A stretch of DNA of 42,058 nucleotides, taken from the IMG/VR virus record IMGVR_UViG_3300024054_000030, positions 1 to 42,058 of that record; one strand, written 5' to 3'. Positions within the stretch are counted from its first letter, which is position 1. Each line of letters opens with the position of its first letter. Shown piece by piece: positions 2,132-32,983 of this stretch. This stretch comes from a virus. A program made the position numbers and the translations under genes. Under the pieces are notes generated by a model that ran no database searches, was not told where the DNA came from, and saw nothing but the letters and a program-made list of their open reading frames with translations.

Positions 2132-2323
2132 GTGAGCGAGAAGGTGCTGCAGACGGTGCGTGTGAGCCCTGAACTCCGCAAGCGCCTGAAGCTGTGGAGC
2201 GCCGAGACGAACGAGCCTGCGCAGAAGGTCTTCCTGGAAGGACTCCGGCTCTACGCGGCGAAAGAGGGCCTGGACCTGTCGGGCCTGGAGGACTACGAGG
2301 AGGGGTCGGACAATGGGCGCTGA
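2132..2323 (+). CDS. Ribbon-helix-helix (CopG/Arc-type) regulator
   Basis: A 63-residue protein with a GTG start at 2132, 7 to 8 bases after GGAGG. Residues 5-45 read as one beta strand (LQTVRVSP), a first helix (ELRKRLKLWSAETN) and a second helix (PAQKVFLEGLRLYAAKEG), the arrangement of CopG/Arc/MetJ dimers. Such proteins bind DNA as dimers through the strand. A short acidic tail follows. Its stop overlaps the sulfotransferase start by 11 bases, so it is cotranslated with the glycan block and may autoregulate this operon; that last point is inference. A full-length antisense reading frame here was ignored. Confidence 0.7.
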   Translation: MSEKVLQTVRVSPELRKRLKLWSAETNEPAQKVFLEGLRLYAAKEGLDLSGLEDYEEGSDNGR

Positions 2324-3023
2324 TCCCGTGGGCCCGTTCGGTGGGCCAGGGACCTCGCAGCACGGAGGTCCTCTCTTCGTGACCGGAGCCCCGCGTTCCG
2401 GCACCACGCTGGCGTCGATGTTCCTGAACTGGCACCCCGAGTGCATGATCTTCTACGAGAGCCACCTCCTGCTGGACCTCCTGCAAGGCTTCAAGCCCAA
2501 CTGCGGACCGGCGCCCACCATTCACCTGCCGACGACCTGGAAGGGCGAGCAGGTCACGGCGTACCACTGGGGCTTGCATCAGGTCACGGCGAAGCTGGGG
2601 TTGACCCTGCCGGACCCGGAACTGCAACTGGTGCGCGGGTGTCTGCGTGGGTTGTGGGATCGGTGCTGGACGTGGAAGAAGGTCCTGGGGGACAAGAGCC
2701 CCTACTACGCCTTGACCTGGGAGACGGTGAAGCGGGTGCTGCCGGAGGCGAAGTTCATCGCCCTCATGCGGCCGGAAGCCGAGTGCGTGGAGTCGGTGCT
2801 GGAGCAGGGCTGGGGCTACACGCGCGAGCAGGCCGAAGCCTGGGTGCGGGCGCACTTCGAGGGGCTGACGACCATCCAGGACTGCATCTTCGTCGAGCTG
2901 GAGTGGCTGCAGCGCGACCCGCGGCAAGCCGTGGGGGCTATGCTGGAGTGGGCGGGAGTGGACCCGCAGCGGATGCAGTGGGACGGCGCGCTGGCGGAGA
3001 TGGCGCGCGGGGCGGTGAACTGA
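2313..3023 (+). CDS. Sulfotransferase family protein
   Basis: A 236-residue protein that should transfer a sulfuryl group from PAPS to an acceptor. The 5'-phosphosulfate loop is clear: FVTGAPRSGTTLAS near residues 22-35. The 3'-phosphate site fits R153 and S161 in LMRPEAECVES, with the usual eight-residue spacing. GDKSPYY near 126-132 resembles the loop that closes the active site in Sulfotransfer_3-type enzymes. The acceptor is unknown. Because glycosyltransferases and surface proteins follow in the same run of overlapping genes, a glycan or Tyr on a virion or host surface is the best guess. GAGGAGGGG precedes the ATG. It shows C-ending codons, unlike the genes just before it. Confidence 0.88.
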   Translation: MGADPVGPFGGPGTSQHGGPLFVTGAPRSGTTLASMFLNWHPECMIFYESHLLLDLLQGFKPNCGPAPTIHLPTTWKGEQVTAYHWGLHQVTAKLGLTLPDPELQLVRGCLRGLWDRCWTWKKVLGDKSPYYALTWETVKRVLPEAKFIALMRPEAECVESVLEQGWGYTREQAEAWVRAHFEGLTTIQDCIFVELEWLQRDPRQAVGAMLEWAGVDPQRMQWDGALAEMARGAVN

Positions 3024-3259
3024 TGCTGCGGCGTGTGGCCGAGTGGATCATCGAGCGGTTCTTCGCGCAGCAGTTGGACCGAGCGCTGATCCGCGACCCG
3101 CAGGCGTTCTACCGCTACCTGCGCCGCGCCGGCTACCCGCTTGCAGGAGACACGCTCTTCGTGTACGATGCCCCGCAAGACCGACAGCGGTTCCTGGCAG
3201 CGATCTTCTGGTCGCTGCGACAGTGCCTGAAGGAGCGTGAGCGGAATGTCGGCGCGTAG
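3023..3259 (+). CDS. Small hypothetical protein
   Basis: A 78-residue protein starting MLRRVAEWII, reached through a TGATG overlap with the sulfotransferase stop. It is rich in Arg and aromatic residues and looks all-helical, with a DPQAFYRYLRRAGYP segment in the middle. No motif or membrane segment is evident. The tight coupling on both sides (its end overlaps the next gene by 14 bases) supports it as a real gene. Confidence 0.6.
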   Translation: MLRRVAEWIIERFFAQQLDRALIRDPQAFYRYLRRAGYPLAGDTLFVYDAPQDRQRFLAAIFWSLRQCLKERERNVGA

Positions 3260-3755
3260 CGATCTCTTCGCAGCAGCAGTGAACACGAACCGGACCTTGG
3301 TGACCTCGGCTTCGGAGCCTGCCGTGTGGACGATGGGGGGGCGGGTCCTGTGTCTCCATGCGGTAGGCTCGCGAGTGCGGTTGCGCCAGATCGAGGTGAG
3401 CAGCGCCTCGATTGCGACCGTGACGCTTCGCGTGGGAAGCACCGGGGTCACGAAGACGAATGAGGGCAGCGACGGCACCCCGGTTTCGGTTGGGATCGGC
3501 AACCTCAACCAGGAGGGGAACCGGGCGGCAGCCGCCGTGGCGTACAGTCCGGCCGCCGACAAGTCGAACTACGGCTGCGCCGGCACGGTCTACAACATCC
3601 TGGTGTCGCGCATCATGGCGAACGTGCCGGTCCTCTGGCGCTTCGATCACCACGAGGTGCGGCTCGGGATCAACGGGTCGTGCGTGCTCCGCGTGAGTCC
3701 GGCCAGCAACGGGGATGTCGTCACGGCGACGCTGATCTGGGAGGAGTTGGACTGA
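3246..3755 (+). CDS. Putative virion surface/decoration protein, paralogue 1
   Basis: A 169-residue beta-rich protein (MSARSDLFAA). ATG 3246 is preferred over GTG 3237, which is too near AAGGAG. Its C-terminal half aligns by eye with the protein at 5836-6285. Shared points are an RQIEVS/RRIEVS strand, a GNLNQEG/ANLNGEG turn, VPVLW followed by FDHHEVRL/YDHLEFRL, and a final IWEEL/EWEEL. The two genes flank the glycosyltransferase-radical SAM gene, so they may be its substrates or partners. Low Cys content, many Ser/Thr/Ala and the position among tailspike-like genes suggest a virion surface role; no family name can be given. Confidence 0.65.
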   Translation: MSARSDLFAAAVNTNRTLVTSASEPAVWTMGGRVLCLHAVGSRVRLRQIEVSSASIATVTLRVGSTGVTKTNEGSDGTPVSVGIGNLNQEGNRAAAAVAYSPAADKSNYGCAGTVYNILVSRIMANVPVLWRFDHHEVRLGINGSCVLRVSPASNGDVVTATLIWEELD

Positions 3756-5836
3756 TGGAGGTCCCGCGCAGTGTGGCGATCTTCTCCGGCTGCGGATGGT
3801 CGTGTAGCGGCGGAGCGCAGCGTCCGGTGGCGATGGCCCGGCAGTTGCGAAAGCGGGGCTTCGAGGTCTGGTACTACTCGGAGGTCGATCGACAAGCCTG
3901 CCGGTCGCCCGAAGGCGTGCATGTCATCGGGCAGCAGCGGTTCGACCCGCAGAGCCTGCCCGCCGAAGGCCTAGCGATCTGTTGCCTGCCCCCGTACTTC
4001 CCCTATGTGCAGAAGCTCCACGAACGCGGCTGGAAGGTCCTCTACGACCTGCTCGACGACTGGGAAGCCTTCATCGACGAAGACCACCTGCAGCCGGATG
4101 CCCTGGAACACGAGTCGGCGCTCATCGAGTGCAGCTCGGCTTGCATCGCCTCGGCGCCGAAGCTCCATGACTACCTGCGCGCCCAAGGCGCGAAGCACGT
4201 CGAGCTGATCCTCAACGGCGGGCCGGAAGAACCCGTGACACCGGCGCATCGGGTGAGCGGGCCCGGGATCTATCCCGTGCTGTGCTCGCACCTCTTCGGG
4301 GAGTGGATGGACTGGAAGATCATCGAGGCCGTGACACACCAGCCGGACCTCTTCCTGTCCATCATCGGGAAGTACCACCTGGAGCAGGACTGGACCGGAC
4401 GCCGGATCGATTCCCGCGTGGACGGGTATGCCCCACGGGCGCACTTCCGTGGCGAGCTGCCCTGGGAGTCCGCGCTGAAGTTGATGGCGACCCAGGACTG
4501 CGGCATCATCCCCTTCAAGGGGCGCATCTGCCACTCGGTGGACCCGATCAAGTACTACGACCACCTGGCCTGCGGCCTGTGGACCGTGGCGAGCAGCGAC
4601 CTGTGGCCGATGATCGACCGCAAGTACACGCTCATCGCCAACCGCAGCGACTTCCCCGAAGCAGTGCGGCTGGCCGCCAAGCAGCGCAAGCGAGAGCCCG
4701 TGGACCCGGCCGAAGTGGCGGCCAACGCCTGGTCGGCGCGGGTGGAGTCTCTGTTGGCGTTCCTGGAGCGAGTGCCCGAGCCCGCTTTGGCGGTCCCGGC
4801 AGCGAGACAGAGAGAGTCGAGACCTTCCCCTCGAACTCCCTCCGCGAAACCCTCCCGTTCGCGTGCGGCCGGTCTCGCTGCCGAGGACTGCCGTCTGACT
4901 GCCTCGGTGCAGATCCCGGGGACCTGTCAGATGCAGCCGCAGTGCCCATACTGCAACACGGCGGCGCTCCGGCAGCGCCAGACAGCACTGTCGGCCTCGG
5001 CCGACCAGTGGGCAGACGCGCTGCTGCGCCTGGGCGACCGGCACGGTCCGGTGTACTACACCTTCTGCCACGGGGAGCCGCTGGGCTCCGACGAGTGCAT
5101 CTCCGTGCTGGCGAAGGTGGCGCAGCGCAATCACATCGACGTGGTGACGAACCTGCTGACGCCCGCGAGCCGGTTGCTGCGGCTGCCCCGCAACGGCAAC
5201 CTGGCCTTTGCGACGAGCTTCCATCCGCATGCCTGGCGCAGCGTGGACGAGTTCATGCGCCGTCGCTGGGAGTACGAGATCGGCGGCCTGCGGATGGGCA
5301 CGGTGGGCATCGTGGCCTACCCGCCGCACTTCGACCGGCTCGAAGGTTGGCGGGAGCAGTTTCTGGAGCGCGGGCTGACCGCCGACGCCTTCGTTGTGAT
5401 CCCCTACCACGGAAGCTATCACGGACAGCACTACCCCGCAGCCTACACTGCCAGCCAGCAGTCCGCGCTCCAGACGTACCACCAGCAGAGCTACCTGGGT
5501 GAGTTGCAGGTGCCCATGCGCACATGGGAGCGTTCCCAGGGCCTGCCGTGCCGGACGGGACGGGACTTCGTGTTCATCGAGTGGGACGGGACGGTGCATC
5601 GGTGCACGCAGGGTGGGCAGCCGCTGGGCAACCTCCTGCAAGGGACGCTGAAGCTGAACGCGGGCGCCGAACCGTGCCTGCACGAGACCTGTCCCTGCCC
5701 CGACCTGTGGAAGTACATCGAGCCCGGCACGGTGATCTACCCGCCCGGGGAGTCGCCGCATGAGCGGGCGCTGAGGTTCGCAGCCTACGAGCGACATCGA
5801 CGGGAGCAGATTCGTCTCCCGGTGGAGGTCCGGTGA
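3755..5836 (+). CDS. Glycosyltransferase fused to a radical SAM/SPASM-like domain
   Basis: A 693-residue fusion. Residues 1-340 look like a GT-B glycosyltransferase: an early strand SVAIFSGCGW, a helix SGGAQRPVAMARQLRKRG, a YDLLDDW segment, and a C-terminal half ending YYDHLACGLWTVAS. A Ser/Arg/Pro linker follows (about 345-380). The C-terminal domain opens with C391, C397 and C400 (TCQMQPQCPYC), a CX5CX2C version of the radical SAM cluster site, then HGEP at 439-442, like the GGEP strand that binds SAM. The tail carries IEWDGTVHRC (C617) and CLHETCPC (C641, C646, C648), as in SPASM/twitch auxiliary cluster regions. The start is through TGATG. The reaction is unknown; transfer and modification of one sugar or peptide target is an inference. 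Confidence 0.82.
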   Translation: MEVPRSVAIFSGCGWSCSGGAQRPVAMARQLRKRGFEVWYYSEVDRQACRSPEGVHVIGQQRFDPQSLPAEGLAICCLPPYFPYVQKLHERGWKVLYDLLDDWEAFIDEDHLQPDALEHESALIECSSACIASAPKLHDYLRAQGAKHVELILNGGPEEPVTPAHRVSGPGIYPVLCSHLFGEWMDWKIIEAVTHQPDLFLSIIGKYHLEQDWTGRRIDSRVDGYAPRAHFRGELPWESALKLMATQDCGIIPFKGRICHSVDPIKYYDHLACGLWTVASSDLWPMIDRKYTLIANRSDFPEAVRLAAKQRKREPVDPAEVAANAWSARVESLLAFLERVPEPALAVPAARQRESRPSPRTPSAKPSRSRAAGLAAEDCRLTASVQIPGTCQMQPQCPYCNTAALRQRQTALSASADQWADALLRLGDRHGPVYYTFCHGEPLGSDECISVLAKVAQRNHIDVVTNLLTPASRLLRLPRNGNLAFATSFHPHAWRSVDEFMRRRWEYEIGGLRMGTVGIVAYPPHFDRLEGWREQFLERGLTADAFVVIPYHGSYHGQHYPAAYTASQQSALQTYHQQSYLGELQVPMRTWERSQGLPCRTGRDFVFIEWDGTVHRCTQGGQPLGNLLQGTLKLNAGAEPCLHETCPCPDLWKYIEPGTVIYPPGESPHERALRFAAYERHRREQIRLPVEVR

Positions 5837-6285
5837 TGAAGCACTCGAGCGACGTGTTTGTGGCAGACGCCGGCGGCGTGGCCGGCGCGACGGCCGGAGT
5901 CTACACGCTGGTGCTGAACGCCAACGGGAAGAAGCTGCGTATCCGGCGCATCGAGGTATCGCAGGAGACAGCCGGTAGCGTGGTGATCTCGCGGGCCTTG
6001 GCCTCGGGTGTCTCCGGCGGGGCGGCGGTGACGGAGGCCAACCTCAACGGCGAGGGTTCGGGTCTGCCTACGGCGGTGGCGACCAAGGGGACGCGAACAT
6101 CGGATCACACGGTGGGTAGCCCGGTGACGCTGGAAGCGCAGACAGTGGCCGCCGACGTGCCGGTGCTGTGGATCTACGACCACCTGGAGTTTCGCCTGTC
6201 GGAGTTGCAGGCGCTGTGCATCAAGCAGGTCGTCACGACGAACGACGATCTGTGCTACGCTCACATCGAGTGGGAGGAGCTGTAG
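5836..6285 (+). CDS. Putative virion surface/decoration protein, paralogue 2
   Basis: A 149-residue beta-rich protein (MKHSSDVFVA) started through a TGATG overlap, with GGAGGTC upstream. It is the paralogue of the protein at 3246-3755, sharing the IEVS strand, the NLN-EG turn, the VPVLW-(F/Y)DH-E-RL segment and the WEEL end. Gly, Ala and Val are abundant and no enzyme motif is seen. The pair lies on both sides of the fusion glycosyltransferase. A decoration or fibre-associated role is inferred from composition and context only. Confidence 0.65.
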   Translation: MKHSSDVFVADAGGVAGATAGVYTLVLNANGKKLRIRRIEVSQETAGSVVISRALASGVSGGAAVTEANLNGEGSGLPTAVATKGTRTSDHTVGSPVTLEAQTVAADVPVLWIYDHLEFRLSELQALCIKQVVTTNDDLCYAHIEWEEL

Positions 6286-6585: not shown

Positions 6586-7968
6586 ATGGCTGTCGTCCAC
6601 AGGTACGTCCGCACGGACGGCAACAATGCCAACAGCGGCGCGACGGCTGCGCTCGCCTGGGCCACGCTGGACTACGCCGCCTCGCAGGACTACTCCGGAA
6701 ACGCGGACGGCACCGACATCCACGTAGCACCGGGCACCTACCGCGAGACGGTCGTCGTGGACTTCGCTGGAGCTTCCGGGCGCGTGACGCGCTTCCTCGG
6801 CGATCCGGAGAACCTCTGGTTCGGGGCCACAGCCAATCCTGGTCGGGTCCGGATCACCGACGCGAACAGCAGCGAGCAGCACCCCAACGGCGGAACCGCC
6901 GTAGTTATCTCCTGCAACAAGGACTACGTGGAGTTCCACGACTTCTACCTCGACGCCAGCTACCGTGCGGTGAACTTCACCGCTCAGGGTACCGGGCGGG
7001 CGCTCAACAAGTGCATGATCTTCTCGCGTGAGACCGGGGTGCTATACGGAAGTTTGATCAAGGACTGTGTGATCTTCTCCGGCCTCTACGCAGTTCGCTC
7101 ATCGTCCAGGACGGTGGACTGCTTCCTGTTTGGCGGAACCACCGGAGCGATCGTGGTGGATGTCATGAGTGCAGTGTTCGACAACTGTCTCGTTATGGGA
7201 ACCACTGGTGCTCGCGTGACCACCGCTGGTGGGTCGCTGACGTGCCGGAACTGCGTGGCGTTTGGGTGTGTGAACTATGGTTTCCAGCAGACAGGTGGCA
7301 CGATGACTCTGTCGAGCTGCAATGCCGTGTTATGCGGGACTTCCGACCTCGGCACTATCTCCGCTACCGCCTGTTACGCCAGCGGGTGCGGAACGCTCAA
7401 TGCGTTCACGACGGGAGGGGGTTCTGCTCTACTGGACTTCAACGTCCTGCGTGAACTGGCGCCCTACGTCGCGGCAGCCGGAGTCGGTGGGATCATCGCA
7501 CAAGGCGACAACACCGGACCGGCCTTCACGGCAACCGACACCGACATCTCGGGGCATCGGCTGCGCCTGCGAGGCGGGACTGTGTTGGACATCGGGCCGA
7601 CTGCCATCTCCTCGCCGACCGACCTGCCGGGCGGGATGCTCGACTGGACCACCTACAAGATCGCCGCGCCCTCGGTGCAGATCGTGGCTGAGGGGGACGT
7701 GCTCCTGCAGGTACCCGCCGCTGTCTCGGTGCCGGTTCGTGTCGCCGTGTGGGTCCGGCACGACTCGATCACCGGCAACAAGCCGCAGATCGTACTGAGA
7801 GGCGACTCGATCACCGAGCAGACCGCAACCGCTACGGCAGGAGACGCCACCTGGGAGCAGCTGGTCGTGACGGCTACTCCGACTATCGACGAGGTGCTCA
7901 CTCTCGTCTTCCGTGCCCGCAACAGTGCGGGGACGTGTAGGTTCTCGGATGCCGAGGTGATCGCATGA
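6586..7968 (+). CDS. Beta-helix tailspike-like protein
   Basis: A 460-residue protein. The N-terminal part (YVRTDGNNANSG, then WATLDYA and IHVAPGTYRETV) is the typical opening of a pectate-lyase-like right-handed beta helix. About 200 residues of short repeating strands with NC, SC and DC steps follow (for example LTCRNCVAFGC, MTLSSCNAVLC). The C-terminal 130 residues change to a jelly-roll-like stretch resembling a carbohydrate-binding module. Such proteins recognise or cut surface glycans of the host. There is no obvious particle-binding domain at the N-terminus. The gene is 1 base after its neighbour and overlaps the next by ATGA. Confidence 0.72.
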   Translation: MAVVHRYVRTDGNNANSGATAALAWATLDYAASQDYSGNADGTDIHVAPGTYRETVVVDFAGASGRVTRFLGDPENLWFGATANPGRVRITDANSSEQHPNGGTAVVISCNKDYVEFHDFYLDASYRAVNFTAQGTGRALNKCMIFSRETGVLYGSLIKDCVIFSGLYAVRSSSRTVDCFLFGGTTGAIVVDVMSAVFDNCLVMGTTGARVTTAGGSLTCRNCVAFGCVNYGFQQTGGTMTLSSCNAVLCGTSDLGTISATACYASGCGTLNAFTTGGGSALLDFNVLRELAPYVAAAGVGGIIAQGDNTGPAFTATDTDISGHRLRLRGGTVLDIGPTAISSPTDLPGGMLDWTTYKIAAPSVQIVAEGDVLLQVPAAVSVPVRVAVWVRHDSITGNKPQIVLRGDSITEQTATATAGDATWEQLVVTATPTIDEVLTLVFRARNSAGTCRFSDAEVIA

Positions 7969-8132
7969 AGTGGGTGTGGAACTACGGAGGATGGTTCAAC
8001 TTCCCCGGCCGGTTCGGCTCCGGATTTCATGTGGGGCCGACCGGCGCTTTCGTCTCGTCCATCTCTGCGGAGGCGCAGCCCACGATCGACCTGCGTCGGC
8101 GGCGTCTGTACCAGAGGGGCGGCAGGAGATGA
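7965..8132 (+). CDS. Small hypothetical protein (55 aa)
   Basis: A 55-residue reading frame with ATGA overlaps at both ends, with the tailspike-like gene (7965) and the acetyltransferase (8129). It begins MKWVWNYGGWFNFPG, very rich in aromatic residues and Gly, and ends in a basic Arg run. No family is recognised. The double coupling is the main support. It may be a small virion component or a spacer gene that keeps the acetyltransferase translated. Confidence 0.55.
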   Translation: MKWVWNYGGWFNFPGRFGSGFHVGPTGAFVSSISAEAQPTIDLRRRRLYQRGGRR

Positions 8133-8596
8133 TCCGGTCCATCCGCGCGATGCGCCAGAGCGACATCCCGGTGATCCTGGGCTACTACCAGGAGGCCTTC
8201 GGGATCAACTTCCCCGGGCGGGACTTCGAGCGCGTGAAGCGCGCCGCGCGGATGCGCGTTCTCCAGGCGCTGCCGAAGGAGTCGGATGAGGTCGTGCTGG
8301 TCGCCGAGGGACCCGAGGAGCTGATCGTGGCCTACGCCTGGCTCGCGAAAGGGCGCTCCGGTGACGGCGAGGAGTGCGCGACCATCGAGGGCTTCGGGGT
8401 GCATCCCGACTACCGGCGCCAGGGGATCGGCGCGATCATGGCCGAGGCGGCGCAGGAGTGGGTGTTCCGCCTGTGGGGGCTGAAGCGGCTGCAGTGCGTG
8501 GTGTCTCTGGACAACGAGCCGGTGGTCGGGCTGCTGGAGAAGATGGGCGGGCAGGCGCGGTTCGTGACCTACGTGAAGGACGTGGATCATGGCTAG
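8129..8596 (+). CDS. GNAT family N-acetyltransferase
   Basis: A 155-residue protein with the GNAT fold. The acetyl-CoA pyrophosphate loop is R96-R97-Q98-G99-I100-G101 after the strand ATIEGFGVHPDY. The next helix and the strand LQCVVSLDNEPVVGLLEKMG match the end of the fold. It should acetylate an amine or a sugar amine. The neighbours are surface and glycan-modifying genes, so an amino sugar or a surface protein is a plausible acceptor. AGGAG overlaps the 3' end of the small gene before it. The substrate is unknown. Confidence 0.88.
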   Translation: MIRSIRAMRQSDIPVILGYYQEAFGINFPGRDFERVKRAARMRVLQALPKESDEVVLVAEGPEELIVAYAWLAKGRSGDGEECATIEGFGVHPDYRRQGIGAIMAEAAQEWVFRLWGLKRLQCVVSLDNEPVVGLLEKMGGQARFVTYVKDVDHG

Positions 8597-9206
8597 TGTC
8601 CGGTACGACCAGGGCGCTCAATTGGTCGCCGTTGTGCGGATGCCCTCGCTGCCGGCCGGATCGGCTGTCATCGGGGCTGTGACGATCTCCGGCACCCCGA
8701 ACGTTGCCGTGACTTCGCTGCCCGAGGTAGTAACCGTCGATCACCCTCACGAGGAGATTCACGACGGGGATTCCTTCACCTACCAGGATGTCATCACGCT
8801 GGGCTCGGCCGCCACGCAGGACTACCTGCTGACCGTAGCCAACACGACCAAGTGGCCGCAATTCGTCTTCGAGGTAGAGGGCACTTTCGGGATCACGGTT
8901 GAACTGTACGAGGGCGCCGACCGTACCGGGACTTCGGCTCAGTCCATCATCAACCGCAACCGGAACAGCGCCACGACGGCGGGCATGACCGTCCACAAGG
9001 GCACGAGTGGCGGCACGACAGACGGAACGCGAATCCAGTGGACCGCCTCCGGTTCGGGGACGGCTGCCGGTCGTCAGGCTGGCGTTCGACGCGATGTGTC
9101 CGAGATGATCCTGGATCAGAACGTGAAGTACATCTTCCGAGTCACGTCCGACGCCAACAACAACCGCATCGCAGTGAAGCTGGATTGGTACGAGCACGTC
9201 GTGTAG
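8589..9206 (+). CDS. Phage virion surface protein of the YEG/NRNRNS type
   Basis: A 205-residue beta-rich protein that overlaps the acetyltransferase by 8 bases. It has VDHPHEEIHDGDSFTYQD, then VELYEGADRTGT, IINRNRNS, and a C-terminal IAVKLDWYEHVV. This pattern recurs in many tailed-phage structural proteins of unknown exact role, as far as I recall. The final LDWYEH is reminiscent of the IEWEEL ends of the two paralogues upstream. A head-fibre or tail-decoration role is an inference. Confidence 0.65.
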   Translation: MASVRYDQGAQLVAVVRMPSLPAGSAVIGAVTISGTPNVAVTSLPEVVTVDHPHEEIHDGDSFTYQDVITLGSAATQDYLLTVANTTKWPQFVFEVEGTFGITVELYEGADRTGTSAQSIINRNRNSATTAGMTVHKGTSGGTTDGTRIQWTASGSGTAAGRQAGVRRDVSEMILDQNVKYIFRVTSDANNNRIAVKLDWYEHVV

Positions 9207-9596: not shown

Positions 9597-9747
9597 TCCG
9601 CTGGAGCCGGACCCGCTGGATGAAACGCAGATGGCCGTCTGCGAGGAGTGCGGGTACCGCGCCGAGATGAAGAGCTTCCTGGCGCGGGACTCGGAGGACA
9701 CGGCCTGTCCGCGCTGCGGCGCGGATGAGGTCAGCTACGAGATGTGA
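9589..9747 (+). CDS. Zinc ribbon protein (52 aa)
   Basis: A 52-residue protein with a GTG start at 9589 after GAGGTGCTCA. It has a clear zinc ribbon: C18 and C21 in CEECG, then C40 and C43 in CPRCG, 18 residues apart. An acidic, Pro-rich N-terminus precedes it. It overlaps the previous stop by 8 bases and is 11 bases before the glycosyltransferase-methyltransferase gene. Its role is unknown; such ribbons bind nucleic acid or act as scaffolds. Confidence 0.65.
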   Translation: MPDPLEPDPLDETQMAVCEECGYRAEMKSFLARDSEDTACPRCGADEVSYEM

Positions 9748-9758
9748 AGGGGGACCCC

Positions 9759-11447
9759 GTGAAAGGCAGTCGTCCGTTCCACTTCGTCGCACCCGTCTAC
9801 TTCGAGCAGTGGGACTACCGTAACCCCGACGACCCCGGCATTGGCGGCAGCGAGACGCAGGTTGTGGAGATGGCGCGCCGACTCGCCGCCCGTGGCGAGG
9901 AGGTCCGCGTTTTCGCCCCGCTGCGCAAGGACACGGAGAGCTTGTACGAGGGCGTCCACTGGCATCCGCTGGAGGAGATCGAGCGCTACCGGCAGGAGAA
10001 CGCGGTCTGGGTCCTGTCGAGGTGCCCGAAGCTGGTGGACCTGGGCTTCGGCGGGGAGACCTGGCTGGTGTGCCAGGACGAGGACTACATGTTCCAGGAT
10101 CGGGACGTGTGGAGTCCGGAGCGCGTGGAGCGGATTGACCGGGTGCTGGCGCTCTGCCCGACGCACCAGGCGGCCCTGCTGAAGCACGAGGAGTTGGCAG
10201 GGAAGGTGTGGCTCTCGACCAACGGGGTGCGGGTGGACCTGCTGGAGCAGATGGAGCAGGAGGGCATCGAGCGGGACCCCAACAAGTGCATGTACTTCAG
10301 CAGCCCGGATCGTGGTCTCGTGCAGGCGGTGCTGCCGAACTGGGGACGGGTGCGGGAGTTCGCGCCGGAGGCCGAGCTGCACATCTACTACGGCTGGGAC
10401 AACATCCAGAAGTGGATCGCCAAGGGCGTGAAGAACGACGCCATGAGGTCTCTGCTGGCGCGGTTCGAGCGCTTGAAGGATCGGGAGGGAGTGGTCTGGC
10501 ATGGGCGCATGGGACAGACGGCGCTCTACCGCGAGCTACTCTCGGCGTCGGTCTGGCCGTACTGGAGCGACTTCAAGGAGACCTCGTGCATCGCGAGCCA
10601 GGAGGCTCAGGCGGCGGGGCTCATCCCTGTTGTTCGGCCGATCTGGGCGGTTGGCGACAACGTGCGCTTCGGGCTCATCTACGACGGCAGCGCTTACAGC
10701 GACGGACTGGCTCTTGCCAGTGCGGTCGGTTACACCGCGTCTGCCGTGTCTGATCCCGCCTTCCAGGAGACGCTACGCCCGCGGATGATGCAGCGGTCGC
10801 GGTTCCGCTTCGATTGGGAGCGCGTGGTGGATCAGTACCAGTGCTGGGAGCGCGGGATGTGGTTCCCTCACATCGACTGCGCGGAGGATCACGGGCTGCC
10901 GTTGCCGTGGACGGCGTTCCAGCGGTTGGAGTCGGAGGGCACGACGCTGATCGTGGGCGCCGGTGGGGACGTGGCGAACTTCTGGAACCTCCCTGGGTGC
11001 GTGCTGACGGACGTGGCGCCCACTGATCCGGTGACGGGGCGGCTCAACAGGATCCACTTCGAGATGCAGGGCGACGACCTGCAGTTCCCCGACAACAGCT
11101 TCGACAGCGTGGTGTTGGGCGAGGTGATCGAGCACGTTGACCTGCAGCGTGGCTTGAAGATGGTGGATGAGGCGTTGCGGGTTTCGCGGTCGAGGGTCGT
11201 GGTGACGGTGCCGGAGGACGGGCGCAGCATCGAGCAGCAGATGAGCGACGACCTGCGGGACATCGGGCAGGTTCACCGAGCGGAGCAGTATCATGGCGGG
11301 GCGTCCACGTATCATGTGACGCGCTGGACGGAGCCCCTGCTGCGGAAGATGGCGGAGACGTTGGGGGCCCGAGTCGTGACACACCGCAGGCTGCGGCAGC
11401 CCTACGGGGCGGGCCACGGGATTGTCCTGAGCAAGGGGGGCGTCTGA
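9759..11447 (+). CDS. Glycosyltransferase fused to a SAM methyltransferase
   Basis: A 562-residue fusion. GTG 9759 is chosen over GTG 9744 since AAGGGGG lies 7 bases before it. Residues 1-365 resemble a GT4-type GT-B glycosyltransferase: GGSETQVVEMARRL at 29-42, the mid strand KCMYFSSPDRG, and an acceptor-half stretch SQEAQAAGLIPVV. Residues 390-562 are a class I methyltransferase: LIVGAGGDV near 397-405 for SAM and FPDNSFDSVVLGEVIEHVD at 443-461, the usual post-motif II strand and helix. Transfer and methylation of a sugar by one protein is the natural reading. The stop overlaps the next start by TGATG. Confidence 0.85.
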   Translation: MKGSRPFHFVAPVYFEQWDYRNPDDPGIGGSETQVVEMARRLAARGEEVRVFAPLRKDTESLYEGVHWHPLEEIERYRQENAVWVLSRCPKLVDLGFGGETWLVCQDEDYMFQDRDVWSPERVERIDRVLALCPTHQAALLKHEELAGKVWLSTNGVRVDLLEQMEQEGIERDPNKCMYFSSPDRGLVQAVLPNWGRVREFAPEAELHIYYGWDNIQKWIAKGVKNDAMRSLLARFERLKDREGVVWHGRMGQTALYRELLSASVWPYWSDFKETSCIASQEAQAAGLIPVVRPIWAVGDNVRFGLIYDGSAYSDGLALASAVGYTASAVSDPAFQETLRPRMMQRSRFRFDWERVVDQYQCWERGMWFPHIDCAEDHGLPLPWTAFQRLESEGTTLIVGAGGDVANFWNLPGCVLTDVAPTDPVTGRLNRIHFEMQGDDLQFPDNSFDSVVLGEVIEHVDLQRGLKMVDEALRVSRSRVVVTVPEDGRSIEQQMSDDLRDIGQVHRAEQYHGGASTYHVTRWTEPLLRKMAETLGARVVTHRRLRQPYGAGHGIVLSKGGV

Positions 11448-11662
11448 TGGAAGAGAACAGCGTCATCGAGACCATCATCATGGCTGTCATGATTCCAATG
11501 ATCAAGGAGAAAGTCGCTCAGGTGCTGTGCTCTGAGACCGACGAAGATAACCGGATACATGATGCTGTTTGTGCGGGGTTTGCTCTTGGGTTGGAGTTCC
11601 AGAGGAGCCTGATTGGTGCCTTCCAGACCAAGTTCTGGGAGCTTTCGGATAGGGGAGTCTGA
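11447..11662 (+). CDS. Small hypothetical protein
   Basis: A 71-residue protein starting MEENSVIETI, coupled through TGATG on both sides. The first 20 residues are hydrophobic (IIMAVMIPMI) and could be a membrane-touching helix, but it is short for a full membrane span. The rest is amphipathic. No family is recognised. Its place between two glycosyltransferase genes suggests an accessory part in the same pathway. Confidence 0.55.
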   Translation: MEENSVIETIIMAVMIPMIKEKVAQVLCSETDEDNRIHDAVCAGFALGLEFQRSLIGAFQTKFWELSDRGV

Positions 11663-12456
11663 TGGGACCGTATGCGGCGTTGGGCGGGCGCACGGTGCAG
11701 GGAACCATCGGGATCATGGGCGGGGTGCCGGAGGTTCCGGTGCCCTTCGTGATGTCGTTGTCCGACATGCTCCAGTACAACTACGAGCACGCGCTGGCAC
11801 GTCTGGAACGGGTGCGGGTGACGAGCGCCTTCTGCTCGCTGCACTCGGCGGCCAGGAACCAGCTCGCGCGGGACTTCAGCGGCGCCTTCCTGCTGATGCT
11901 GGACACGGACATGGTGCACCAGGCTGATGCGATGTGCCGGTTGCGTCGGACGATGTTGTTCCACGACGCGGACGTGGTGAGCGGGGTGTACTACAAGACG
12001 AACCCGCCGCACTTCCCGGCGCTGTGGGCGTGGGACGCGGAGGACCAGTTCTTCCGCGAGGCGATGGTGGCGCCTGACGTGCAGGGTCCGTTCCGCGTAG
12101 ATGCTGCGGGAGCGGGTATCCTGATGTTGAGCCGGCGGGTGATCGAGCGGGTGAAGGCGGAGCACGGAACAGACCCCTTCGACATCGAGCCCGGGGCGGC
12201 GAAGGGGCATCCGCCGTTCGGAGAGGACCTGAGCTTCTTCCGCAAGCTGCTGCTGTTGAATCCGCGTCCGAAGGTGCTGTGTCATCCTGGAGTGGTGAGT
12301 CGCCACCTGCGCTGGCAGCCGGTGGGGCCTGAGGACAACGAGTACGAGTTGAGCAAGCTGATCGTGTCGAAGGACGACCCCGCGCATGATCGGTCGATGG
12401 TGGCGCTGTACGACGGCCAGGAACTCGACGTGAAGAAGCTGAGGCCTGGGGCATGA
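11662..12456 (+). CDS. GT-A type (GT2-like) glycosyltransferase
   Basis: A 264-residue protein with the GT-A features seen in many phage and capsule loci. ARNQLARDFSGAFLLMLDTDM has the DXD motif at D81-T82-D83, which binds metal and the nucleotide sugar. Later FRVDAAGAGILMLSRRVIE and GEDLSFFRKL (near 180) match the acceptor side, with the ED pair as likely catalytic base. It probably works with the two fusion enzymes upstream. The start is TGATG-coupled and the stop overlaps the next ATG. The sugar and acceptor are unknown. Confidence 0.8.
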   Translation: MGPYAALGGRTVQGTIGIMGGVPEVPVPFVMSLSDMLQYNYEHALARLERVRVTSAFCSLHSAARNQLARDFSGAFLLMLDTDMVHQADAMCRLRRTMLFHDADVVSGVYYKTNPPHFPALWAWDAEDQFFREAMVAPDVQGPFRVDAAGAGILMLSRRVIERVKAEHGTDPFDIEPGAAKGHPPFGEDLSFFRKLLLLNPRPKVLCHPGVVSRHLRWQPVGPEDNEYELSKLIVSKDDPAHDRSMVALYDGQELDVKKLRPGA

Positions 12457-13106
12457 GCGCGGAGATCGAGCGGGCGCTGACGCCGCGACAACACGCGAAG
12501 CAGCTCTTCATGCAGGGGGTCCCCAAGGCGGAGATCGCGGAGACCCTCGGGCTGGGGCTGCCCGAGCTTCAGGCGTGGGCGGCCGAGTGGGCGTCTGTGG
12601 ATGTGGACACGATCATGCCGGTGCAGCGGGTGATGCACGCCTTCGCCACGCGGGCGGTCCCGCTGGTAGAGAACCTGATGGCAGCCTGTGAGCGGTTGGC
12701 GGGTCAGCTTCACACGAAGCCCCACAAGGAACTGATGCAGTCGGCCAACGTGATTGCGAAGATGGCGAGTACGGTGGTCGAGGTGGTGAAGACGTGCAAC
12801 CAGAAGACGGACCGGATCCTGGACCCGATCTCGGCGACGCAGGTCAACATGCACTTCCCCGGGGTGCGGCTGCCCGACCCGCAGGAACTGATGAATGCGG
12901 TGGAGGTGGAGGAACTGGGGGCGGAGTCTGCTGCGCCGGTTCGCACGTACCTGGACGACTTCCGGGACAAGGCAGTGGAGCGCCTGGGCCAGATGGAGGG
13001 CGTGGCCGAGGCGGTCGTTGATGACCTGTCGCTGCAGGTGGCGCGGTCTCCGCTGGACATGCTACGAGACGGGGAGGACATCGGTGTCCGCGACGAGACT
13101 GACTGA
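12453..13106 (+). CDS. Putative terminase small subunit
   Basis: A 217-residue protein directly before the large terminase, with which it overlaps by 23 bases. Residues 11-45 hold a helix-turn-helix (AKQLFMQGVPKAEIAETLGL), typical of small subunits that bind the packaging site. A long helical middle and an acidic C-terminus follow. Sequence of small subunits is poorly conserved, so the call rests on position and the helix-turn-helix. Confidence 0.6.
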   Translation: MSAEIERALTPRQHAKQLFMQGVPKAEIAETLGLGLPELQAWAAEWASVDVDTIMPVQRVMHAFATRAVPLVENLMAACERLAGQLHTKPHKELMQSANVIAKMASTVVEVVKTCNQKTDRILDPISATQVNMHFPGVRLPDPQELMNAVEVEELGAESAAPVRTYLDDFRDKAVERLGQMEGVAEAVVDDLSLQVARSPLDMLRDGEDIGVRDETD

Positions 13107-14583
13107 CGCCGGTCCGGCCGACATCTACATCGGCTTCCGGCACCCGGTCACTCGAAGACCTACCAATCCGCTGCCTGCGCAGGCTGCGTTCCTCTCCAGC
13201 CGCGCCAAGCATCGGGGGCTCTTCGGCGGGTACGGGTCGGGCAAGTCCGTGGTCGGCGGGATGGCCGCCAACATCGAGTGTGAGATGTACCCCGACAACC
13301 TGGGGATCATCGGGCGCCGCATCTGGAACGACCTGCGCGACTCCACGATGGAGGTCTTCTTCCGCGAGGTGCTGCCGCCCGAGCGCAACCCGCTCATCGG
13401 CGACAAGCGGGCCGAGGGGAAGTGCAAGTGGATCGCCACCTCGAAGGACCTGATCTACCCCAACGGCTCGAAGATCATGTTCCGCCACATGGACGACCCC
13501 TCGCGCTACCTGTCGGAGGAGCTGGGCTGGTTCTACCTGGACGAGGGGATCGAGAGCGGGATGGACTTCGCGTACAAGGTGCTCTCGTCTCGGTTGCGTC
13601 GCGGGCGCTCTTCGCGTCGCGGCTGGACGACCAGCAACCCCGGGCCCCGATCCTCGTGGCTGCACCAGAAGTTCATCGAGGGCATGAAGCGGGACCCGAA
13701 CAGCTACTTCGCCATCTCGGCGTCGTCCCTCGAGAACCGCTACCTGCCACGGGACTACCTCGCGGAGCTGATGGAGTACCCCGACGAGGAGTTCAAGATG
13801 TACGTCATGGGGCAGTTCATCGCGGCGCAGGGGGCGGTCTTCCCGAAGTTCCGGCGCGACGTGCATGTGGTGCGCCCGTTCGAGATTCCTGAGGAGTGGC
13901 CGAAGCTGCGAGCCATCGACTACGGGCTGAACCATCCCTTCGTGTGCCTGTGGATCGCGGTGGACGAGTTCGACCGGAAGCTCTACGTGTACCGGGAGTG
14001 GGTGGCGACGGACCTGGACCTGGCGCAGCAGTGTCAGATGGTGCATGGCCTGAGCATCGGCGAGAAGTACCTGCACACGGCGATCGACCCGTCTACTCAG
14101 GCGAGGGTCATCACGGGTGGGCTGCCGGTGATTGACCAAGTGCGGATGTACCTGGACAACGTGATCCCGGGCTTCAACGACGTGAACTCCGGCGTGACGC
14201 GCATCCGCACGTTGCTGAACTGGAACGTGGATCAGCAGGGGAACTTGACGCGGCGCCCGATGCTCTACTTCTTCGACAGCTGCCCCACGGCCATTGACCA
14301 AACTGAGGCGCTTCAGTATGATGTCCGCAAGGGTGTGAGCACGGGGAAGCCGGTGGATCGTGACGACGACGCGGTGGACGCGCTGAAGTACGGGGTGCAG
14401 AGCATCGGCGGTTTCGAGGGGTTCAAGGTGGAAGAGGCAACCCCCAGAGATACGATCCAGAGCCGGTGCCGCAAGCAGGCCGAGAGGGAGCATGGCAGGA
14501 AGTTCAGGGGAGGGCGTGGAAGGAAGAGCTTGAGGGACGAGCTGATCGAGCGTGAGGTAGCACGGCTTCAGGTGAGCGCATGA
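13084..14583 (+). CDS. Terminase large subunit
   Basis: A 499-residue ATPase/nuclease that pumps DNA into the prohead. The start is GTG 13084, with GGGAGG 8 bases before it. Walker A is GGYGSGKS at 48-55, Walker B ends FYLDE (D153, E154), and the coupling motif TTSNPGP comes near 180. The RNase H-like nuclease domain has AIDYG (D279), AIDPSTQ (D335) and DRDDDAVDAL (about 425-434), the usual acidic set. It is complete. Its stop overlaps the portal start by ATGA. Packaging type (pac or cos) cannot be read from it. Confidence 0.93.
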   Translation: MSATRLTDAGPADIYIGFRHPVTRRPTNPLPAQAAFLSSRAKHRGLFGGYGSGKSVVGGMAANIECEMYPDNLGIIGRRIWNDLRDSTMEVFFREVLPPERNPLIGDKRAEGKCKWIATSKDLIYPNGSKIMFRHMDDPSRYLSEELGWFYLDEGIESGMDFAYKVLSSRLRRGRSSRRGWTTSNPGPRSSWLHQKFIEGMKRDPNSYFAISASSLENRYLPRDYLAELMEYPDEEFKMYVMGQFIAAQGAVFPKFRRDVHVVRPFEIPEEWPKLRAIDYGLNHPFVCLWIAVDEFDRKLYVYREWVATDLDLAQQCQMVHGLSIGEKYLHTAIDPSTQARVITGGLPVIDQVRMYLDNVIPGFNDVNSGVTRIRTLLNWNVDQQGNLTRRPMLYFFDSCPTAIDQTEALQYDVRKGVSTGKPVDRDDDAVDALKYGVQSIGGFEGFKVEEATPRDTIQSRCRKQAEREHGRKFRGGRGRKSLRDELIEREVARLQVSA

Positions 14584-16562
14584 GTACCCTGGCGACCGAC
14601 CCGGGCATTCAGAAGAGCCCTGACAGGAAGCGCGCGATCACCGATGCAGTGATGCAGCGGTACCGTGACGCTTCGATGGCGCGGCACGACTGGGAGAACC
14701 AGGCGTACATGAACATCGCCTTCTTCCTGGGCTACCAGTGGATCGGGTGGTCTGACGGGACCGGGTGGATTCAGAAGGCCGAAGACGCGGAGATGCGCTA
14801 CCACCTGGTCTACAACCTGCTGCAGCCGGCGGTGCGGACGCAGGTGAGCCGCACGATGAGCCACAAGCCCTGGGTGACGTGCCTGCCGACGACGGCGGAA
14901 GAGGAGGACGTGCAGGCGGCGAGGTTGGGCACGAAGCTCCTGCAGCATTGGCGCCGGCGGCTGTTCACTCCAACGCTGGAGGCTGAGTTCTACACCTGGC
15001 AGGCGGTGTGTGGGACGGCCTTCTGGCGAGTCGGGTGGGATGCGTATGCTGGACGTTCGATCATTCAAAGGCCGCTCGCACCCTTCGGCGAAGGTATTCT
15101 CTCTCCACACCGGGCGGAAGCATTTCGTGCCCGGCCCGCGAAACCAGACACCCGGGCCCCCTTTGAGCGGTACCTGGCCGAGAGCATCGAGGCAGCGGGT
15201 AGTGGGGGCGTTGGGGGGAGTCCTGAGAGCGAAGCAGCGATAGAGGAGCTGCCGGAGGGGGATGTGCTGCTGGAGGTCGTGAACCCCTTCGAGATCTACC
15301 CTGAGCCTGGCGTGGAGTCGTGGGACAAGGCGTCATGGGTCATCCATGCGCGACGGAGGAGCCGAGATGATGTGCGGGCTGCGTGGGGTGATACGGTGGC
15401 TCGCACAGCGCTGGGCATCCCGGCGAACACGCTGACGGAGGGGCCGGGCTTCAACCCGGACCGGGTACCGAAGTCGGGGGATCCGCAGAACCTCAACGCG
15501 CTCTTCGGGGTAAGCGAGAAGGTTGAGGACGACATCCCGGTGGTGGAGTACTGGGAGCGCCCGAGCAAGGGGTTCCCGAGCGGCCGGCATGTGCTGGTGG
15601 TGGGGAGCGTGTTGGTGCACGATGGGCACAACCCGTTCCCGTTCAACGATGTCCCGCTGGTGCATGTGCCGTTCGAGCGGGTGCCGGGGACGGTGTGGGG
15701 TCGGGGGATGGTGGAGTCGGTGCGCCCGATGCAGGAGGAGTTCAACCGGACGATCAGCCAGTTGGCGGAGGCCCGCGACTACAGCAGCTTCCCGAAGGTG
15801 CTGGTCCCGAGGGGCACCAACCTGTCGCCGATCGTGGGGGACAACCTGCCCGGGGAGTTCTGGGAGTACAGCGGGGCGATGCCGCCGCATGTGATGCAGG
15901 CGCCGCAGATGCCCGCGTACATGGGAACGATCCTGCAGCAGAGCTATCAGATGTTCATGGACCTCACGCACCAGCATGAGGTGACGCGGGGGACGACGCC
16001 GCCGAACGTGGAGTACGGGATCGCGATCCAGCTGCTGCACGAGGCAGACAACAGTCCGTTGCGCTCGACGTATGACATGATCGACGACGGTCTGGTGCGG
16101 GTGTCTCGGATGCTGCTGGCGGTGGCGCAGAAGTACTACACGGAGCCGCGTTACCTGCGACTGGTGGGGCAGCGCAAGGAGCCGCAGGTGATCGCGTTCA
16201 CGGGGAGTGACCTGCACGGGATCGTGGACGTGTACGTGGAGCCGAGGAGTGCTCAAGCGAACACGCTCGCGGCGAAGCGGCAGGAGATCATGTCTCTCTA
16301 CCAGAGCGGTCTCTTCGGACCTCCGGGTGATCCGGTGGTGACGCAGCGGGTGCTGCAGGCGCTGGAGATGGGCCACCTGAGCGAGATGTTCGAGGAGAAC
16401 ATGACGGTGGAAGAGGCCGTGATGCTGCACCTGCAGCAGATGGTCTCCCAGCCCGGGGGACTGGAGATGCTGGTGCAGTGGCTTCAGCAGTTGGGGGCTC
16501 CGGCTGGGGCCCAAGGGGCGCCCGTGGGGCAGCCCATGATGATGTTGCCGGCGGCAGGGTAG
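14580..16562 (+). CDS. Portal protein
   Basis: A 660-residue protein that would form the 12-subunit portal. The length and motifs (YHLVYNLLQPAVR, EVVNPFEIYPEPG, VWGRGMVESVRPMQEEFNR, VEYGIAIQLLHEADNSPLR) fit the long portals of podoviruses such as P22. One oddity is a 60-residue stretch after VGWDAY (nt about 15045-15220, before LPEGDV). It is low in homology-like pattern, Ser/Arg/Pro/Gly-rich, with codons (ATT, CAA, TTT, AAA) that are rare in the flanking gene. It looks like an insertion that kept the frame. The C-terminus is Gln/Pro/Met-rich. Confidence 0.9.
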   Translation: MSTLATDPGIQKSPDRKRAITDAVMQRYRDASMARHDWENQAYMNIAFFLGYQWIGWSDGTGWIQKAEDAEMRYHLVYNLLQPAVRTQVSRTMSHKPWVTCLPTTAEEEDVQAARLGTKLLQHWRRRLFTPTLEAEFYTWQAVCGTAFWRVGWDAYAGRSIIQRPLAPFGEGILSPHRAEAFRARPAKPDTRAPFERYLAESIEAAGSGGVGGSPESEAAIEELPEGDVLLEVVNPFEIYPEPGVESWDKASWVIHARRRSRDDVRAAWGDTVARTALGIPANTLTEGPGFNPDRVPKSGDPQNLNALFGVSEKVEDDIPVVEYWERPSKGFPSGRHVLVVGSVLVHDGHNPFPFNDVPLVHVPFERVPGTVWGRGMVESVRPMQEEFNRTISQLAEARDYSSFPKVLVPRGTNLSPIVGDNLPGEFWEYSGAMPPHVMQAPQMPAYMGTILQQSYQMFMDLTHQHEVTRGTTPPNVEYGIAIQLLHEADNSPLRSTYDMIDDGLVRVSRMLLAVAQKYYTEPRYLRLVGQRKEPQVIAFTGSDLHGIVDVYVEPRSAQANTLAAKRQEIMSLYQSGLFGPPGDPVVTQRVLQALEMGHLSEMFEENMTVEEAVMLHLQQMVSQPGGLEMLVQWLQQLGAPAGAQGAPVGQPMMMLPAAG

Positions 16563-16593
16563 CCGTCGAGCCATGAGGCCAGGAGGCTGAAGG

Positions 16594-17589
16594 ATGGCTG
16601 CGGACAGGAGCGAGCAGGTGCCGTTGGACGACTACGCAAGTGAGCGTGTGGCCGGCGGCGACGAGGCGATGCCGAGCCTGGATGATGTGGAGGCATATCT
16701 GGCAGGGGCTCTGGAGGGCGCTGGAGCGCCCCCGGACTACGGAGTGGGGCTCCAACCCGATTCCGGCGTCGGAGTGCCACAGAATGCGCCACAGGGGCTT
16801 CCTGTAACGCCTACAGCGCGAGGCGAGGAAGACTTCGTCGGACAGGGGCTGGACCGGCTGTACTCTCGGCAGGAGGTCGAGGACCAGCAGCCTGGGGTGC
16901 CGGCCAAGGGGCCGGAGTCTGGGTTCGTGGTGCGCGAGGCCTATGAACGGGTCAAAGCGGCACGTGATGCAGCCCAGGCGGAACTGGAGCAGTGGAAGCC
17001 TCTGCTCGACCAGGCGAGGCAGTATGGGCGGAACGGCCAGGAGGTTGTGGACTCCTTCCAGCGGGCGTTGATGGTGCAGAACGCGCAGTCGAGCCCCTAC
17101 GGGGTGGACAGCTACAACCAGAACCCTAACCCTCCGCTCCCGTTGCCCACACGACAGGCGGAAGGTACGAAGCTTGACCCAGAAGACCGTGCGATGCTGA
17201 AGCAGGTCCTGGAGCGCCAGGAGAAGGCTGACCTTCAGATCGAGCAGCAGCGGCTTCAGCAGGAGATCGCGACGGGGTTGCAGCGCTACCAGTTGGAGCG
17301 CGACCCCCTGGCTCTGGACTACGTTCGCATGGCGATGGCGAGCTTCCCGAACGCCACGATGGATCAGATCCTGAAGTCCTACCTGTCGAAGCGACACGCG
17401 AGCCTGCAACAGACCACGGCGCTGAAGCGCGAGGCAGGTTCGCTCACACCAGACGTGCGAGGTGGAAGGACAGCAGCCGGAGCATCCAATCGCATCGAGG
17501 ATCGGATCGCTCAGATGAGTGACACGGAGCGGCGCCAGGCGGCGGCCGCAGCCCTCGCCCGGGCGGGCGGGTTGGCAGACCTCAGGTAG
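16594..17589 (+). CDS. Putative scaffolding protein
   Basis: A 331-residue acidic and helical protein between portal and capsid genes, the standard scaffold position. It has Gln/Glu-rich helices (LERQEKADLQIEQQRLQQEI) and a disordered, Pro/Gly-rich N-terminal part. AGGAGG lies 7 bases before ATG 16594. The Arg/Ala-rich end (TERRQAAAAALARAGG) could be the coat-binding helix-turn-helix. No protease gene or motif was seen, so scaffold exit without cleavage, as in P22, is likely. Confidence 0.7.
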   Translation: MAADRSEQVPLDDYASERVAGGDEAMPSLDDVEAYLAGALEGAGAPPDYGVGLQPDSGVGVPQNAPQGLPVTPTARGEEDFVGQGLDRLYSRQEVEDQQPGVPAKGPESGFVVREAYERVKAARDAAQAELEQWKPLLDQARQYGRNGQEVVDSFQRALMVQNAQSSPYGVDSYNQNPNPPLPLPTRQAEGTKLDPEDRAMLKQVLERQEKADLQIEQQRLQQEIATGLQRYQLERDPLALDYVRMAMASFPNATMDQILKSYLSKRHASLQQTTALKREAGSLTPDVRGGRTAAGASNRIEDRIAQMSDTERRQAAAAALARAGGLADLR

Positions 17590-17607
17590 TCGGCGCTCGG
17601 GCCACCT

Positions 17608-17642
17608 GTCTGACCTCGCATTCGACCACGAGGAGGTCAGAC
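17608..17642 (+). promoter_or_regulatory. Hairpin over the capsid ribosome binding site
   Basis: GTCTGACCTC at 17608-17617 is the exact reverse complement of GAGGTCAGAC at 17633-17642, with a 15-base loop. The right arm covers part of the AGGAGG ribosome site (17631-17636) of the capsid gene at 17647. No T run follows, so it is not a normal terminator. It could control capsid translation or protect the mRNA after processing. Confidence 0.5.
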
Positions 17643-17646
17643 CGAG

Positions 17647-18861: not shown

Positions 18862-18874
18862 GGAGGCACCCACG

Positions 18875-19201
18875 ATGGCAATCGAAGAGCTGAACCTCAG
18901 CCAGTTGGCGACTCGGGAGCGCCTGTTTGTGATGAACGGGTCGGAGACGGTTTCCGGCTACAAGCAGCTTCAGACAGGGCTCTCCGAGGTGATCGGCGTC
19001 TGGGCGACGCTGGACCAGTTCCCGACTGCAACGCACATGGACACGGGTGCGGCAATCTCGGACCAGTCCACCGAGCCCGGGCAGATCGAGCTGTACGTGA
19101 CCATCCCGACCTCCATCTCGACGAACGCTACACCGACGACGGCGGCGACGGCGGCGAAGGTGTCGTGGATCGCGATTGGGGCGAAGCCTGGCCTGATGTA
19201 A
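18875..19201 (+). CDS. Small capsid-adjacent hypothetical protein
   Basis: A 108-residue protein starting MAIEELNLSQ, with GGAGGCACC upstream and 13 bases after the capsid stop. It has Thr/Ser-rich, beta-type segments (GQIELYVTIPTSIS). Its location suggests a head decoration or cement protein, but no family is recognised. Confidence 0.6.
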   Translation: MAIEELNLSQLATRERLFVMNGSETVSGYKQLQTGLSEVIGVWATLDQFPTATHMDTGAAISDQSTEPGQIELYVTIPTSISTNATPTTAATAAKVSWIAIGAKPGLM

Positions 19202-19232
19202 CACGCGGGGCAGGTGGGCGCGGGGTCCCCCC

Positions 19233-19250
19233 GGGGGGATCACCCCCTTT
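19233..19250 (+). terminator. Possible terminator after the capsid genes
   Basis: GGGGGG at 19233-19238, a 4-base loop and CCCCC at 19243-19247 are followed by TTT. A second GC palindrome (CCCCCCGGGGGG) overlaps it. The T run is short, so only partial termination, to lower tail gene output after the abundant capsid mRNA, is plausible. Confidence 0.35.
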
Positions 19251-19282
19251 CCTCCCGGGGGGAAGGACCAGAGGAGTCGGCT

Positions 19283-19555
19283 ATGAGCAGCATTCAGGTG
19301 CGGGATCGTCTGACGAAGGAGCAGCATGAGCGGAGGCAGCACAACGCCCGTGTGCTGGAGCGCGTGGACCGTGACAACGCGCGGATGAAGGCGGAGGCAG
19401 CGCAGAAGCAGTCCGACCTCATCCAGGACAGCAGTCGCTACTTCGGGAAGATGATCCAGCAAGAGGCGTCGGGCGAAGCCGTGCGTCACGGGAGCCGGAT
19501 GGGCGACGCCATCCGGGCATACAAGCGGCAGGCGGGCCTGTCGGTAGATGACTGA
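19283..19555 (+). CDS. Charged helical hypothetical protein
   Basis: A 90-residue protein with AGAGGAG before ATG 19283. It is highly charged and probably a single coiled coil for residues 5-60 (ERRQHNARVLERVDRDNAR). No motif was recognised. It lies between capsid-side and adaptor genes and may be a small head or scaffold-related protein. Confidence 0.55.
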   Translation: MSSIQVRDRLTKEQHERRQHNARVLERVDRDNARMKAEAAQKQSDLIQDSSRYFGKMIQQEASGEAVRHGSRMGDAIRAYKRQAGLSVDD

Positions 19556-19567
19556 GGAGGTTCCGTC

Positions 19568-22948: not shown

Positions 22949-22957
22949 GAGTCGGTG

Positions 22958-23998: not shown

Positions 23999-24008
23999 GG
24001 GGTGAACC

Positions 24009-25510: not shown

Positions 25511-25521
25511 GGGGTAGTAGG

Positions 25522-26283: not shown

Positions 26284-26285
26284 CC

Positions 26286-30948: not shown

Positions 30949-30950
30949 GG

Positions 30951-30982: not shown

Positions 30983-30986
30983 GCTG

Positions 30987-32972: not shown

Positions 32973-32983
32973 GGCGACCCCCT

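Follow-up and report, generated by a model that had tools for sequence, protein, structure and literature searches.

A predicted glycosyltransferase–radical SAM fusion enzyme encoded by two unrelated phages

Results

One open frame joins two domains within a packed gene cluster

The window analysed here is a 42,058-nucleotide stretch of an IMG/VR virus record (IMGVR_UViG_3300024054_000030, positions 1 to 42,058) encoding a terminase, a P22-like portal, a major head protein and an SU10-type adaptor. A first-pass annotation had placed in it a gene for a glycosyltransferase (GT) joined to a radical SAM/SPASM-like domain, and translation of positions 3755-5836 bears out the single chain, yielding 693 residues in one open frame with a single terminal stop, an ATG start at 3755 and a TGA stop at 5834-5836. 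The motifs quoted in that annotation also lie at the residues given for them, i.e. C391/C397/C400 (CX5CX2C), HGEP at 439-442, IEWDGTVHRC at 608-617 and CLHETCPC at 641-648. The gene shares TGATG overlaps with the genes upstream and downstream of it, and GGAGG stands ahead of its own start and of the downstream one, so that it forms one link of a tightly packed operon. The features of the locus are as follows.

3237..3755, plus strand: upstream paralogue A, 172 aa, its stop overlapping the fusion start (TGATG)
3755..5836, plus strand: GT-B/radical SAM fusion gene (protein P0001), 693 aa, ATG start, TGA stop
3755..4789, plus strand: N-terminal GT domain (residues about 1-345) with GGAQRP loop, YDLLDDWEAF and IIPFKGRICHSVDPIKYYDHLACG, assigned by sequence homology
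4790..4882, plus strand: proline/arginine-rich linker (about residues 346-376), coding-frame signal lost or shifted, not conserved in the second phage
4868..5833, plus strand: predicted C-terminal radical SAM domain with a five-Cys auxiliary-cluster tail (residues 372-693), from NF038073 match, alignment, AF2 model and fold matches
4925..4954, plus strand: cluster loop CX5CX2C, C391-C397-C400 (CQMQPQCPYC), spacing identical in the second phage (TCQMAPACPYC)
5066..5080, plus strand: CHGEP, putative SAM-binding GE motif with the phage-specific C438, from alignment with STM4011 proteins and the second phage
5549..5698, plus strand: putative auxiliary Fe-S region with C599-X12-G-X4-C617 and C641-X4-C646-X-C648, unchanged in the second phage and across 34 STM4011 proteins
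5836..6285, plus strand: downstream paralogue B, 149 aa, its start overlapping the fusion stop (TGATG)

Third-position GC is high across the GT and radical SAM domains alike and the fusion frame is therefore coding. Over about 90 bases confined to the linker (about window 4795-4885) the coding-position GC signal switches frame and then returns, a pattern that resembles two compensating frameshifts or a fusion scar, and one that is as expected from a drifting linker or from two compensating frameshifts. The flanking genes are, as had been noted, paralogues of one another (34% identity, E 8e-16), and no relatives of either were found in our searches; no tool marked either of them as the surface protein that the earlier annotation had proposed.

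The N-terminal half is related to glycosyltransferases of polysaccharide loci

An Actinomycetota GT is 33% identical to the fusion protein over residues 7-337, a span covering both Rossmann-type halves; that protein has a Glyco_trans_1_4 match above cut-off and its gene adjoins a GT2 and an ABC-2 polysaccharide exporter. A Pseudomonas plasmid GT from an O-antigen-type locus was likewise matched by the domain (tblastn 3e-12), whilst the Pfam match of the phage domain itself to PF13692 (Glyco_trans_1_4) was weak (E 0.0099, below cut-off). These profiles and homologues support the earlier assignment of the N-terminal half, which by homology is a GT-B-type glycosyltransferase; the fold assignment rests on that homology, the single-sequence model of the whole fusion protein having a pLDDT of 35.6. 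With GT-B enzymes of polysaccharide loci (Glyco_trans_1_4 group) the phage domain shares 26-33% identity and YDxxDxW and PxKxYEYLA-type motifs, except that both of the phage fusion proteins described here have Asp for the usual Glu of the YEYLA (EX7E) region. Elsewhere this GT group is often fused to glycan enzymes, namely a pyruvyl transferase, a GT2 or another GT, whereas the phage partner is a radical SAM domain. On a further viral contig of 64.8 kb (L114), a 725-aa protein (6819-8996) consists of two GTs in tandem, the second of which is 30% identical to that of the window; a GT9 heptosyltransferase-like gene (4216-5544) lies next to it.

A divergent STM4011 relative makes up the C-terminal half

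The NCBIfam model NF038073 (STM4011 family) matched the C-terminal half with an E value of 9e-19 and 67.8 bits, against a family cut-off of 200 bits and scores of 380-408 bits for true members. An HMM that we built from 34 STM4011 proteins gave the fusion protein 68.9 bits, compared with at most 7.6 across 500 shuffles of its C-terminal part. In Pfam, the generic radical SAM and SPASM matches were under cut-off (SPASM PF13186, 15.3 bits vs 21.5), and sequence searches of the PDB gave no match. Homology to STM4011 proteins extends along the whole radical SAM domain at 25-30% identity, with conservation in the 34-protein alignment of the three cluster Cys, GE, TN, HP, CRTG, DGTVxRC and the five C-terminal Cys; CPYC, LGNL and PC-X4-CxC are likewise shared. 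A full-length alignment was dropped, because the N-termini of the STM4011 proteins fell on the GT domain. Besides the fused GT, the phage enzyme differs from STM4011 proteins in its cluster loop, CX5CX2C as against CX3CX2C in those sampled, and in C438 just ahead of GEP (window 5066-5068), which is invariant in both phage fusions and non-Cys in STM4011. From the alignment, C438 is a possible candidate for a phage-specific active-site residue.

The AF2 model of this domain, of moderate confidence (pLDDT 70.8, pTM 0.71), is a predicted (beta/alpha)6 barrel followed by a Cys-rich tail. The Cys, GE, TN and HP motifs map to barrel-strand ends, with C391/C397/C400 in a ten-residue loop after predicted strand 1 and G440-E441 after strand 2. 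All of the 50 VIA entries listed are radical SAM proteins, including BlsE (7vob; Z 16.3, 267 residues aligned, rmsd 3.7), SkfB (15.9), SuiB (15.2), a viperin-like protein (14.2) and anSME (14.0); anSME is also the best Foldseek match (E 8e-6), and the leading fold matches also include ChlB, PqqE and EpeE. Profiles and model thus agree with the radical SAM assignment made earlier for the C-terminal half, which we regard, on sequence and predicted structure, as a genuine radical SAM domain, one that is distantly related to the uncharacterised STM4011 family and lies outside the family proper by the NF038073 cut-off.

The SPASM part of the earlier description needs one qualification. The tail is Cys-rich and has the SPASM element CX9-15GX4C (C599-X12-G612-X4-C617), but CX2CX5CX3C and the final Cys are absent, C617 being followed by C641-X4-C646-X-C648 alone, so that the region has five Cys where SPASM is defined by seven. 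The proposed architecture of GT-B-type GT, radical SAM domain and SPASM-like tail is supported by profiles, C-terminal fold and a fused homologue, with STM4011 as nearest family and a tail that is short of a full SPASM domain. The SPASM/Twitch-type enzymes BlsE, SkfB, SuiB and anSME share barrel and Cys-rich tail with the phage domain at 12-16% identity and differ from it in the cluster loop, the five C-terminal Cys and the fused GT.

A CX5CX2C loop is recorded for HcgA/HmdB, for which a [4Fe-4S] cluster and formation of 5'-deoxyadenosine from SAM have been reported (PMC10100467). HmdB was rejected as the family of the fusion protein since its profile match was weak, covering about 27 residues (E 0.03), and, the families being different, the common spacing is probably convergent.

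A second phage encodes the same fusion

Scanning viral contigs with a GT alignment recovered L112 and L113, contigs from two metagenomes that are near-identical and belong to one virus; the homologue was reached only by way of an alignment that took in the L102 protein. Positions 7866-9842 of L113 specify a protein of 658 aa in which both domains recur, 40% identical to the window protein along its length (BLASTP E 1e-133). GT motifs including VDPIKYYD, the CX5CX2C loop, C-[HY]-GEP, FHPHAW and the five tail Cys are kept, all eight cluster Cys being conserved between the two proteins, whilst the long, low-complexity linker has drifted. In L113 a GTA-like tail module and a tail hub/fibre gene are followed by an 84-aa gene, the fusion gene, which overlaps that 84-aa gene, and a tyrosine integrase. 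The closest tail relatives of this virus are phages of Roseobacter, Rhodobacter and Caulobacter, and it is a temperate phage unrelated in virion type to the window virus; beyond the fusion gene, comparing the window with L113 by tblastx yielded sum-statistics noise only. A further contig (L115, 5524-6939) has the L113 gene cut about 180 codons in and joined to GH65-type glycoside hydrolase-like sequence, probably a chimeric assembly.

Since a full-length copy with every cluster Cys occurs in an unrelated phage, the fusion is neither an assembly error nor a one-off. Identity is 40% between the radical SAM domains of the two phages and about 27% between either of them and STM4011 proteins, which sets the phage enzymes apart as a group of their own. 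We conclude from these comparisons that the fusion represents a real, and apparently undescribed, phage enzyme family. No fusion was found in sampled genomes of Pseudomonadota (388-398) or Actinomycetota (386-396), the two phyla covered by repeated, overlapping draws, in which matches were GT-only or STM4011-only; exact peptide patterns of the protein or its halves returned nothing or weak matches only in viral contigs, phages, plasmids and genome contigs.

The left arm of the window looks like a suite of glycan-modification genes

Other genes in the window include a sulfotransferase (2313-3023; Sulfotransfer_3, 1.5e-16), a GT4-type N-terminus fused to a methyltransferase (9744-11447; Glyco_transf_4 1.2e-6, Methyltransf_11 2.4e-5, MftM-like), which shows 79% identity with a related contig (L003), a GT2 glycosyltransferase (11662-12456) and an acetyltransferase. 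STM4011 operons carry STM4012-STM4015 (L005, L006), none of which was found by NCBIfam among the main left-arm ORFs scanned, so that the fusion gene is not surrounded by an operon of this kind, though the record is possibly a fragment. L009, a contig from another metagenome, is 99.98% identical over 20 kb (window 13103-33102) and begins inside the TerL region, confirming the virus but not its left arm. As listed, the start of the TerL ORF runs about 210 bases into the preceding gene (12895-13106) and has an unlikely sequence there; the true start is probably near 13100. A 1388-aa ORF (26286-30452) has no Pfam, PHROGs or NCBIfam match.

Discussion

We propose, at about an even chance of being right, that the protein is a bifunctional enzyme in which the GT attaches a sugar and the radical SAM domain alters it, on a virion tail/fibre component or a host surface glycan. 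The GT-B domain would take a sugar from a nucleotide-sugar and pass it to an acceptor. The radical SAM domain would bind a [4Fe-4S] cluster through C391/C397/C400 and cleave S-adenosylmethionine reductively, and the resulting 5'-deoxyadenosyl radical would alter the transferred sugar by epimerisation, oxidation or deoxygenation, perhaps with the help of a single auxiliary cluster bound by the five C-terminal Cys. The likely purpose would be an unusual glycan on the tail or fibre, or an altered host surface glycan, in either case with possible effects on receptor binding, superinfection or recognition.

A shared target for the two domains, as first suggested, is plausible: the fusion is kept in an unrelated phage with its motifs conserved and its linker drifted, which argues for a joint function. 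A glycan is favoured as the object of the radical chemistry since the GT relatives lie in polysaccharide-export and O-antigen-type loci, since the best fold match, BlsE, acts on a sugar nucleoside (PMC3715490), and since genes for a sulfotransferase, a GT4-methyltransferase fusion, a GT2 and an acetyltransferase share the window with the fusion gene. Against the proposal as a whole count the sub-threshold Pfam matches of the GT, the low pLDDT of the model that includes it, its Glu to Asp change, the lack of other glycan genes in the L113 stretch and the fact that several of the closest folds (SkfB, SuiB, anSME, ChlB) belong to enzymes of peptides or proteins.

Alternatively, the radical SAM domain may modify a protein or peptide side chain, by epimerisation, oxidation or a C-C or C-S crosslink, in the manner of RiPP maturases or anSME, with the GT then glycosylating that protein, most likely a tail/fibre component or the flanking paralogues. 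SkfB, SuiB, anSME and ChlB, which modify peptides or proteins, are among the best fold matches together with PqqE and EpeE, and the fusion gene overlaps small genes in both phages, following the tail hub/fibre gene in L113. We nevertheless think this unlikely, if worth keeping in view, as neither a peptide-binding RRE-like domain nor a recognisable precursor was seen and the linked genes of the window point to glycans; a peptide acceptor is less likely than a sugar. The two paralogues, which the first-pass annotation had offered as candidate substrates, are doubtful in that role and unlikely to be a general substrate, because neither has a homologue in the L113 stretch, where the enzyme is present. 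A tail component or a host surface glycan is the more likely target, and the placement of the L113 gene just after the tail hub/fibre and 84-aa genes counts towards the virion.

Fusion merely for co-expression, with the two domains serving unrelated substrates, would fit the long, unconserved linker and the variety of partners to which the GT relatives are fused. It is improbable given that two unrelated phages retain this domain pair and that the other partners of this GT group likewise act on glycans. Improbable, too, is a catalytically dead domain retained for binding: both domains score under their Pfam cut-offs and the cluster loop is of non-canonical length, yet the eight cluster Cys, GEP and the PIKYYD of the GT are invariant between phages at 40% identity, and HcgA/HmdB, with the same loop spacing, are reported to hold a [4Fe-4S] cluster and to form 5'-deoxyadenosine (PMC10100467). 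Finally, an assembly or frameshift artefact, to which the break in coding signal in the linker and the want of a second assembly of the gene from its own virus (window 13103 is where L002/L009 starts) might point, is effectively refuted by the intact homologue in two separate assemblies of another phage.

In the open PMC literature we found no precedent for GT-radical SAM fusions in phages and no substrate, product or activity for any STM4011 relative, STM4013 being merely named in one paper. Against that literature the separate domain kinds are already known, and it is the fused, CX5CX2C-bearing pair in unrelated phages that was not found there. Returning to the sugar-modifying reading, we suggest, with somewhat less than even confidence, a new phage enzyme family, combining GT-B with an STM4011-like radical SAM domain, a CX5CX2C loop and C-[HY]-GEP across unrelated phage lineages, that would install a sugar and remodel it by radical chemistry, giving a glycan or glycopeptide outside known pathways on virions or infected hosts.

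Phages often carry glycosyltransferases. The conserved fusion points to radical chemistry in the decoration of virions or host surfaces, a use without precedent in the papers searched; such a decoration might bear on host recognition, on the masking of receptors or on visibility to immune systems. The STM4011 group gains a functional lead, since its phage cousin is joined to a glycan enzyme, and the phage CX5CX2C loop offers a second case, beside HcgA/HmdB, for studies of cluster-loop variation.
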